Assembly (NCBI RefSeq): GCF_022899245.1
Contig: NZ_JALJAZ010000001.1
Span: 2,081,001-2,145,000 of the forward strand
Source: Falsirhodobacter halotolerans
GTDB taxonomy: Bacteria; Pseudomonadota; Alphaproteobacteria; Rhodobacterales; Rhodobacteraceae
Length of the DNA stretch: 64,000 nucleotides
Reading direction: 5' to 3'
Of this stretch, positions 74 through 58,447 are shown piece after piece. The position numbers and the translations under genes are program-made. Positions within the stretch are counted from its first letter, which is position 1, and the number at the start of each line of letters is the position of its first letter. Under the pieces are notes generated by a model, which saw only the letters and a program-made list of their open reading frames with translations, was not told the DNA's origin and did not search any database.

Positions 74-157
74 GGGCGACGTGCTGCAAGGTGCGGCAGC
101 GGACTGTAACTCCGCCGAGGCGACTCATGCCTGGTTCGATTCCAGGGTCGCCCACCA
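74..157 (+). tRNA. tRNA-Tyr (anticodon GTA), class II
   Basis: A seven-base acceptor stem pairs GGGCGAC (74-80) with GTCGCCC (147-153), followed by discriminator A and an encoded CCA. The anticodon stem gcgga/tccgc encloses the loop ctGTAac. The T stem cctgg/ccagg encloses ttcgatt. The variable region can form a three-pair arm (gag/ctc), as expected for tyrosine tRNA. The D arm is short and fits only with a G-T pair, which is the weakest part of the fold. Confidence 0.85.
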
Positions 158-49033: not shown

Positions 49034-51388
49034 ATGATCCTGTTCACCACCCTTCTGCTGGGTGCGGTGGGACTGGCGCTCACCATACTCGGCGCTTGGC
49101 TGACGATCCTGGGGGGCAGTGTCGCCTACCTCGTGCTGGGTCTGGCCATCCTTCTGGTCGCGGGACTGGTGTTCCGCCGCCGCGCGACGGCGCTTCACCT
49201 TTACGCGGTCGTGCTGCTGGGCTGGCTGGTCTGGTCCGTCAGTCAGGCGGGGTTCGACTGGTGGCGTCTGGCCCCTTATGGCGGGGTGCCGGTCCTTCTG
49301 GGCATCTGGCTCTGGCTGCCCTTCGTGCGCAACCGCCTGCTGACGCCCGAGGCGCGGGTGGGGCGGCCCACGAACCCCCCCGGCCTGCCCATCGCGCTGG
49401 CGGTGCTGGCGGCCGTGGCCGTCGCCGTCTGGTCGATGTTCCAAGATCCCACGGACCGGTCGGGCGCCCTGCCCGACGCGCGCGTGGCCGATGCCGCCAC
49501 CGGCAACGACATGCCCGCCAGCGATTGGCACCAGTATGGCCGCACGAATTACGGCCAGCGCTGGTCGCCGCAGGATCAGATCACCCCCGAAAACGTGTCC
49601 GACCTGACCGAGGCGTGGCGCTATCAGACGGGCGATGTGAAACGCCCCGACGACGTGACCGAAACGACCTATCAGGTGACCCCGCTGAAGGTGGGCGACA
49701 ATCTTTATGTCTGCACGCCCCACAACCTTGCCATCGCGCTGAACGCGCAGACGGGCGAGGAGGTCTGGCGGTTCGACGCCAATTCCGGCATGAACCCCGA
49801 CCGCCAGCACCAGACCTGCCGCGGCGTCACCTATTGGAACACCGGCGCGCCTGCGCCGGATGCGCCCGGCGGCGACACCCCCGCCTGCATCGCCCGCGTC
49901 TATCTGCCGACGGCCGATGCGCGGCTGATCGCGCTAGACGCCGACACGGGGCAGGTCTGCACCTCCTTCGCCGACAATGGCACCCTGCATCTGGAAGCGG
50001 GGATGCCCTACAATCCGGCCGGTTACTACTACTCCACCTCGCCCCCCGTGGCGGTGGACGGCAAGCTGATCATCGGCGGCGCGGTCAACGACAACTTCTC
50101 CATCTTCTCGCAATCGGGGGTGATCCGCGCCTTCGACATCGACACGGGAGAGCTGTTGTGGAACTGGGATGCGGGCAATCCCGACGACACGACACCGATC
50201 GACATCGCCCAAGGCCAGACCTACACCCCCAATTCGCCCAACAGCTGGTCCATCTTCTCGGTCGATGAGCAGCGGGGGCTGGTCTACATCCCCCTTGGCA
50301 ACCAAGTGCCCGACCAGTTGGGCATGGGCCGGTCCGAGGCGGTGGAGGAGCACTCCTCCTCCATCGTCGCGCTGGATATCGACACGGGGCAGAAGGCGTG
50401 GGTGTTCCAGACCGTCCATCACGACCTGTGGGACATGGACGTGCCCGCACAGCCGGTTCTGGTGGATCTGACCATCGACGGGGCGTCCGTGCCCGCGCTG
50501 GTGGGCCCCACGAAACAGGGTGACATCTATGTCCTGAACCGCGAGACGGGCGCGCCGATCCTGCCCGTGACCGAGGAACCGGCCCCCGGCGGCGCGATCC
50601 CCGAGGACTTCACCGCCCCCACGCAACCGACCTCCGCCCTGACCTTCAAGCCTGCAGCGCTGCGCGAGGCCGATATGTGGGGCATGTCCATCTTCGACCA
50701 GCTGATGTGCCGGATCGACTTCAATCGCCTGAACTACGAAGGGCGTTATACCCCGCCGTCGCTGAACGGGTCGCTGATCTATCCCGGCAATTTCGGGGTG
50801 TTCAACTGGGGCTCCATCGCGGTGGATCCGGAACGTCAGGTGATGTTCGGGATGCCGACCTATCTGGCCTTCACCTCCAAGCTGATCCCCCGCGCCGACA
50901 TTCCGCCGCGCGGCGCGGATGAGACGGCCAGCGAACAGGGCATCAACCGCAACGAAGGCGCGCCCTATGGGGTGGAGATGGGGCCGTTCCTCGGACCCTT
51001 GGGCATTCCGTGCCAGGCGCCGCCATGGGGCTATGTCGCGGGGGCCGATCTGACCACGGGCGATATCGCCTGGCGGCACAAGAACGGCACGGTGCGCGAC
51101 ATGACCCCCCTGCCCCTGCCGTTCGAACTGGGCGTGCCGGGCATCGGCGGGCCGATCATCACCCGCGGCGGCGTGGCGTTCCTTGCTGCGGCGGTGGACG
51201 ATTACCTGCGCGGCTATGACCTGACCACGGGCGATCTGCTGTGGAAGGCGCGCCTACCGGCGGGCGGGCAATCGACGCCCATGACCTATGACGTGAACGG
51301 CCGGCAATATGTGGTGATCGTCGCGGGGGGCCACGGTTCCATCGGGACGAAGCCTGGCGATTACATCATCGCCTATACCCTGCCATGA
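49034..51388 (+). CDS. gcd: Membrane-bound PQQ-dependent glucose-type dehydrogenase
   Basis: A 784-residue quinoprotein with five N-terminal helices (to about residue 140) and a periplasmic eight-bladed propeller. WHQYGRTNYGQRWSPQDQIT opens the propeller. QHQTCRGVTYW carries the His near the PQQ site. HHDLWDMDVPAQPVL (Asp near residue 466) is the catalytic segment, and TKQGDIYVLNRETG carries the PQQ-contacting Lys. Length and order match glucose/quinate/shikimate dehydrogenases that reduce ubiquinone. No PQQ-synthesis gene is in the window. The exact sugar or acid substrate is not certain. Confidence 0.92.
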   Translation: MILFTTLLLGAVGLALTILGAWLTILGGSVAYLVLGLAILLVAGLVFRRRATALHLYAVVLLGWLVWSVSQAGFDWWRLAPYGGVPVLLGIWLWLPFVRNRLLTPEARVGRPTNPPGLPIALAVLAAVAVAVWSMFQDPTDRSGALPDARVADAATGNDMPASDWHQYGRTNYGQRWSPQDQITPENVSDLTEAWRYQTGDVKRPDDVTETTYQVTPLKVGDNLYVCTPHNLAIALNAQTGEEVWRFDANSGMNPDRQHQTCRGVTYWNTGAPAPDAPGGDTPACIARVYLPTADARLIALDADTGQVCTSFADNGTLHLEAGMPYNPAGYYYSTSPPVAVDGKLIIGGAVNDNFSIFSQSGVIRAFDIDTGELLWNWDAGNPDDTTPIDIAQGQTYTPNSPNSWSIFSVDEQRGLVYIPLGNQVPDQLGMGRSEAVEEHSSSIVALDIDTGQKAWVFQTVHHDLWDMDVPAQPVLVDLTIDGASVPALVGPTKQGDIYVLNRETGAPILPVTEEPAPGGAIPEDFTAPTQPTSALTFKPAALREADMWGMSIFDQLMCRIDFNRLNYEGRYTPPSLNGSLIYPGNFGVFNWGSIAVDPERQVMFGMPTYLAFTSKLIPRADIPPRGADETASEQGINRNEGAPYGVEMGPFLGPLGIPCQAPPWGYVAGADLTTGDIAWRHKNGTVRDMTPLPLPFELGVPGIGGPIITRGGVAFLAAAVDDYLRGYDLTTGDLLWKARLPAGGQSTPMTYDVNGRQYVVIVAGGHGSIGTKPGDYIIAYTLP

Positions 51389-56841: not shown

Positions 56842-57513
56842 ATGAAACTCTTTGTCGGCCTGGGGAATCCCGGCGCGAAATATGCGGGCAACCGCCACAA
56901 TATCGGCTTCATGGCGCTGGACCGGATTGCCGAGGATCACGGCTTCGGCCCATGGCGGCGCGGCTATCAGGGGCAGGTGTCCGAAGGGCGGTTGGGCTCC
57001 GAGAAGATCGCCCTCTTGAAACCCGAGACGTTCATGAACCTGTCCGGCCAATCGGTGGGCGAGGCGATGCGCTTCTGGAAGCTGGCCCCCGCCGATGTGG
57101 TGGTCTGGCATGACGAACTGGACCTTGCCCCCGGTCGCGTGAGGCTGAAGACAGGGGGCGGCCATGCGGGGCATAACGGCCTGCGGTCGATCCATGCCCA
57201 TATCGGCGAGGCGTATGACCGCGTGCGCCTTGGCATCGGCCATCCGGGGCACAAGGACCGCGTGGCGGGCTATGTCCTGTCCGATTTCGCCAAGGCGGAG
57301 GGGGAGATGCTGGACGATCTGCTGCGCGGCCTGTCGGACGGCGCGCCCGCGCTGGCGTCTGGCGAGGGGCCACGATTCCTGAACGCGGTGGCGCAACGGA
57401 CGGCCCCGCCACGCCCCTCCACCGGGACCAAGGCCCCCAAGGCACCTCCCGCCGCGCCGGAGCCGCAGGACAGCCGCTCCCCCCTTCAGAAGCTGATGGA
57501 GCGGTTCCGATGA
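56842..57513 (+). CDS. pth: Peptidyl-tRNA hydrolase
   Basis: A 223-residue enzyme that frees tRNA from dropped-off peptidyl-tRNA. MKLFVGLGNPGAKYAGNRHN has the conserved Asn and catalytic His region. LLKPETFMNLSGQSVGEAMR, VWHDELDLAPGRVRLKTGGG and HAGHNGLRSI complete the site. The C-terminal 35 residues are a Pro/Ala-rich extension (APKAPPAAPEPQDSRS), common in this group. GGAGG lies six bases before the ATG. It overlaps the interrupted DUF2237 gene by four bases. Confidence 0.96.
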   Translation: MKLFVGLGNPGAKYAGNRHNIGFMALDRIAEDHGFGPWRRGYQGQVSEGRLGSEKIALLKPETFMNLSGQSVGEAMRFWKLAPADVVVWHDELDLAPGRVRLKTGGGHAGHNGLRSIHAHIGEAYDRVRLGIGHPGHKDRVAGYVLSDFAKAEGEMLDDLLRGLSDGAPALASGEGPRFLNAVAQRTAPPRPSTGTKAPKAPPAAPEPQDSRSPLQKLMERFR

Positions 57514-57884
57514 TCGAACCGTCCGTGAATGTCCTTGGGGCCGCGCTGTAGCCGTGTTCGACCGACCCTCTGACCGGCTTTTTCCGCAACGGCTGCTGCG
57601 ACACCGGCCCGACCGATCAGGGCCGCCACACCGTCTGCGCCGTGATGACGGCGGAGTTTCTGGCCTTCTCCAAATACCTTGGCAACGACCTGTCCACCCC
57701 GCGCCCGGAATTCGGGTTCGGCGGGCTGAAGCCGGGGGATCGCTGGTGCCTGTGCGCCGCGCGTTTCCTTCAGGCGCATGAGGAAGGCGTCGCCCCGCAG
57801 GTCAACCTGGCCGCCACGCATCAGACCACCCTGTCGCTGGTGCCGATCGAGGTTCTGCGCCAATACGCGGAACCGCCATGCTGA
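57510..57884 (+). pseudogene. DUF2237 family gene interrupted by an in-frame TAG
   Basis: The frame starting at the ATGA overlap with pth reads MIEPSVNVLGAAL, then TAG at codon 14 (57549-57551). It then continues without a stop to 57884 with PCSTDPLTGFFRNGCCDTGP, HTVCAVMTAEFLAFSKYLGN, LKPGDRWCLCAARFLQAHEE and NLAATHQTTLSLVP. This is a full DUF2237 protein of about 124 residues. The family normally has LEPC at the stop position, so a single G-to-T change (GAG to TAG) explains it. The rest is intact and Cys-rich motifs are kept, which suggests a recent mutation, a sequencing error or suppression. Confidence 0.85.
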
Positions 57885-58447
57885 TCCGCGCGCTGGCCCT
57901 GGCGGCGCTGACCGCCCTGCCCGCCTCCGCCCAGATGTGGCAGGAGGATGAGGTGCGCCTCTGGTCGCTCGACACCGCCTTGGGCGAGGCGATGCGCGAG
58001 GTGCTGACCGCCGGCCCGTCCGCCGATCTGGACCGTCTGGCGCAGGCCATGGCGGGCGAAGCGTGGCCAGCCGAGGATATGGACCTGACCGGCGCGTGGT
58101 CCTGCACGGTGATGAAGCTGGGCGGCCTGTTGCCGCTGACCGTCTATGCCCCCTTCGCCTGCCGGATGGACGCCGACGGCACGTTCCGCAAGACAGGCGG
58201 CTCGCAATTGACCACCGGGCACATGGAGGTGATCGACGGTCAGATGGTCTACCTTGGCGTCGGGTATGCCGCGGGGGAGACGCCCCCCGCCTATGCCGAC
58301 CTGCCTGAGATGGTGGACCCGGCGGACCTGCCGCAATTTCTGCCGCAGGTCGCGGTGGTGGAACAGACCGGCCCCGCCACGGCCCGGATGCTGTTCCCCT
58401 ATCCGTTGGTCGAAAGCACCTTCGACGTGATCGCGCTGACGCGTTAG
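57878..58447 (+). CDS. DUF4893-like exported protein
   Basis: A 189-residue protein with a signal peptide ([18 protein letters not shown]). The mature part has [40 protein letters not shown] and DVIALTR at the end. It fits a conserved Rhodobacterales group (DUF4893) of unknown function, probably periplasmic. It overlaps the 3' end of the interrupted DUF2237 gene by seven bases. Its stop shares four bases (TTAG) with the convergent trpB stop. Confidence 0.7.

Follow-up and report, generated by a model that had tools for sequence, protein, structure and literature searches.

The DUF2237 gene of Falsirhodobacter halotolerans carries a single in-frame TAG at its 14th codon while the remainder of the gene is intact. 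It is the only copy in the genome, and the corresponding genes of the sister species are uninterrupted. The stop is probably a very recent natural nonsense substitution in a dispensable gene. The stretch of DNA analysed here (the window, 64,000 nucleotides, to which all positions refer) contains the following features around the stop:

56842..57513, + strand, pth, peptidyl-tRNA hydrolase, the upstream gene (PF01195, E 5.4e-62)
57510..57884, + strand, DUF2237 (PF09996) gene interrupted by one in-frame stop, the sole match in the genome
57549..57551, + strand, the in-frame TAG (14th codon), at a site that varies across the DUF2237 family
57642..57647, + strand, GTG-ATG, the first common in-frame starts past the TAG (ORF 57642-57884, 80 aa)
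57878..58447, + strand, DUF4893 gene, its ATG overlapping the DUF2237 stop as ATGCTGA (PF16233, E 8.7e-33)

Translation of positions 57510-57884 gives MIEPSVNVLGAAL*PCSTDP..., in which codon 14 is the only internal stop, a TAG, and the frame ends in TGA. The frame 3′ of the TAG matches profile positions 10-115 of the 115 in PF09996 (E 3.5e-50, 169.2 bits), and the entire frame with X at the stop does so at E 1.1e-53 (180.5 bits, against a curated cut-off of 25). As in the family at large, for which solved chains are available (3ush, 4ioh and 2lq3), the match is full-length whether the stop is read as X or as Q; unlike in the other members, codon 14 is a stop. Translation and the profile match on both renderings thus bear out the first-pass annotation, which had described one in-frame TAG in an otherwise intact frame. 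It was also right about the coupling to pth: the ATG at 57510 and the TGA that ends pth (57511-57513) share the sequence ATGA. Among the 87 loci examined, this overlap is present in all seven members of the genus, this genome included; a further 16 loci have pth immediately upstream, and not one of them shows it. These counts of adjacency are lower bounds since the loci vary in length. The whole genome (3,075,853 bases in 3 contigs) holds one DUF2237 match and no intact second copy, which bears on the effect of the stop rather than on whether the gene is a pseudogene.

If the stop is a fresh substitution, it plausibly arose from CAG by a single C to T transition, the ancestral codon itself being reconstructed. 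Ribosomes initiating at 57510 would then add 13 residues and halt, full-length DUF2237 protein would be scarce or absent, and the gene would in effect be off. The remainder would look intact because too little time has passed for decay. Three points here are our inference: the base is real, the gene is off, and its loss is cheap.

Comparison with relatives sets this genome apart. DUF2237 is intact and free of internal stops in all six sister species (75-79% identity), and TAG at codon 14 occurs in one of 87 sequences, being absent from the six sisters and from 80 other homologues; the stop is not conserved. The first-pass annotation had given Glu as the family residue at this codon. That does not hold, because the site is variable: across the 86 homologues (the six sisters plus the 80 further loci) it is occupied by E in 28, Q in 21, A in 19, T in 6, K and I in 3 each, S and R in 2 each, and D and V in 1 each. 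Codon 14 is evidently tolerant of many residues, which leaves the ancestral codon uncertain. A codon one substitution away from TAG is found in 28 of the 86 (CAG 14, GAG 13, TCG 1). The sisters have CAG in three cases, GAA in two and AAA in one, so that as a guess at the ancestor CAG is at least as good as GAG (three of six sisters against none), and CAG to TAG is the simplest one-step route from a sister codon. In the protein tree the gene sits beside four of the six sisters at a fork with support 96/72, which is not starred and is based on few columns; this placement does not settle the ancestral codon.

No decay is visible after the stop. A comparison with the 86 homologues shows no deviation of the gene at any of 39 invariant columns, 58 columns conserved at 95% or more, or 67 conserved at 90%. 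Zero deviations at the 95% level are also seen in 61 of the 86 others, and are thus common among intact genes. Its unique residues number three, against a median of two among the homologues. The dN to the sisters is 0.16-0.20, inside the among-sister range save for one close pair, and the dS is 0.61-1.25. The 54 conserved codons past the TAG comprise 119.3 nonsynonymous sites and make it unlikely that a neutral period exceeded roughly 0.025 substitutions per site, this limit being a 5% bound that assumes no selection and ignores indels. Set against the branch that separates the gene from its nearest sister, it would amount to about one tenth at most. The lack of decay, together with this bound, indicates that DUF2237 was lost very recently or was not lost at all. 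Recency is read from the missing decay, and a gene kept under selection via readthrough would look identical.

These same observations are compatible with an error in the assembly, in which case the organism has a sense codon and a normal gene. Decay is found nowhere else in DUF2237, the gene is retained in all six sisters, and a single base accounts for everything. We regard such an error as possible, although rather unlikely, given the quality of the record. The assembly is near complete, with 3 contigs and a completeness of 100. Two sister genomes were set against the region that runs from window position 50,000 to a point 60 kb beyond the window. It holds 60 and 33 of the 75 and 49 stretches matched overall, and 8 and 4 were flagged. 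The 12 flags in all matches comprise DUF2237 itself, nine that a start extension, shadow frames or an intact match to the other sister can account for, and two in sampled stretches elsewhere. On close reading, six of the nine turned out to be shadow frames or stops 5′ of the true start; the remaining three were shadow frames or were intact against the other sister. Among the nearby genes that could be checked against the two sisters, no conserved gene besides DUF2237 is broken. With the flags of this region so explained, errors are not frequent here and do not cluster around the TAG. Antisense shadow frames swamped both a codon-usage scan of 464 kb of the genome for other in-frame stops, in which the DUF2237 TAG was not listed, and a home-made gene finder; no rate of broken genes was derived from either. 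Single substitutions are rare in finished assemblies.

The main reading, a recent nonsense substitution, takes the gene to be dispensable. A point against it is that DUF2237 is usually kept, with a match in 344 of 394 sampled genomes of the family. Among the family genomes of good completeness and low contamination, 309 of 347 have a match and 38 do not, which suggests that loss is tolerated. In the family sample, among the matches listed, an internal stop occurs in this genome only. DUF2237 has been tied to phototrophy by its distribution, and a knock-out in Synechocystis is reported to grow normally and to show weaker phototaxis, moving less towards light (PMC5932025). A match to the photosynthetic reaction centre family Photo_RC was found in none of the seven genomes of the genus. 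Loss of DUF2237 thus looks tolerable here, consistent with a fresh null allele.

Three options had been listed at the outset. A fresh nonsense mutation and an assembly error both fit the data, whereas no machinery for the third, readthrough of a dedicated kind, was found. Release factor RF1 is intact (480.6 bits, cut-off 423.25), which rules out a genome-wide reassignment of UAG. The suppressor tRNA for which a check had been suggested did not turn up either: no CTA, TTA or TCA anticodon is present among the 44 Rfam tRNA matches of the genome read for their anticodon (30 + 12 + 2 in the window) or among the window tRNAs. The genome Rfam search is incomplete, having missed a tRNA-Tyr that ARAGORN places at window positions 74-157, and the entire genome was therefore also scanned with a pattern for CTA anticodon loops. 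Of the two hits, one is a tRNA-Arg(TCT) and the other lies where ARAGORN detects no tRNA; a backward control for the pattern gave 10 and 6 hits. Used with each tRNA's own anticodon, the pattern recovers 38 of 41 distinct ARAGORN calls, and one of the three misses resembles a false ARAGORN call. A suppressor tRNA is rejected on the Rfam matches, the window tRNAs and the pattern taken together. Pyrrolysine recoding also involves an in-frame UAG in an intact gene. Unlike in that system, no CTA tRNA was found here, the position of the TAG is not conserved, and the two genome matches to PylS (26.6 and 19.1 bits) lie far under the cut-off of 178.15; equally weak matches appear in 13 of 14 control genomes, and pyrrolysine was rejected. 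Downstream of the TAG, the first 100 bases form no RNA fold out of the ordinary (z -0.15; of 200 shuffles, 81 were equally stable). None of the signals searched for thus points to dedicated readthrough, and ordinary low-level leakage is possible.

Such leakage could leave DUF2237 functional at a low level, with near-cognate tRNAs leaking through the TAG and the stop acting as a brake on expression. Several observations are in line with this. First, with ten kinds of residue at codon 14 among the homologues, almost any insertion would serve. Second, the gene is without decay. Third, Belinky et al. (2021, PMC7918605) report that in-frame stops under purifying selection occur widely in bacteria, and propose that such stops lower expression. 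Fourth, reporters in E. coli leak in some contexts, in the order TGA > TAG > TAA; the readthrough is mostly below 1% at 37 °C and rises when the temperature is low or the medium poor (PMC11126739). Set against these are the lack of the TAG in the six sisters and 80 other homologues, the absence of CTA, TTA and TCA anticodons from the tRNAs found, the sub-threshold PylS matches and the ordinary RNA fold, and we consider continued function through leakage unlikely. DUF2237 resembles the cases of Belinky et al. (PMC7918605) in having a single in-frame stop followed by an intact frame with its conserved residues, and an example given there is a TAG/CAG site in Paenibacillus. The stops that they describe are common to two or more species, unlike the present one, which is known from one genome. 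The DUF2237 TAG fits the published description as a single-genome instance. A more specific possibility, and a very improbable one, is that the TAG is a brake which has itself been selected, the leak giving little DUF2237 protein, and more of it in cold or starvation, in a lineage that needs less.

Restart of translation downstream of the TAG, with a functional shorter protein, is the least credible of the explanations, scarcely to be expected on the evidence. The in-frame GTG-ATG at 57642 does open a frame of 80 residues. Against this, the product would be without Cys 16, 29, 30 and 43, of which C16, C30 and C43 are invariant, and without the strand at residues 41-45 of the structure model, and no sister begins at that position. 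The model, made for the DUF2237 protein of a sister, has a mean pLDDT of 84 and is low at residues 23-33. At E up to 0.001 a fold search returned DUF2237 chains only (4 of 39 rows), and so gave no function; the names of the solved DUF2237 chains state none.

As it stands, the locus is either a conserved, dispensable gene at the first step of its loss, or a base in the record that needs correction. Should DUF2237 turn out to be expressed, the locus would offer a clean test of whether in-frame stops act as brakes on expression, given the shortness of the protein and the range of residues that codon 14 can take.

Two further observations concern the compared loci and the neighbouring gene. The contig JAHVJD010000004.1 is titled Nocardioides marinus (Actinomycetota), and its DUF2237 lies among the Rhodobacterales in the tree, with a 75% match; that assembly is probably contaminated or mislabelled. 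NCBIfam gave no match for DUF2237 or for DUF4893. A DUF4893 match is present in 8 of the 87 loci: besides the present locus, it occurs in seven from outside the genus, and the six sister loci show none within the short flanks compared. Polar effects of the DUF2237 stop on the expression of DUF4893 are conceivable.
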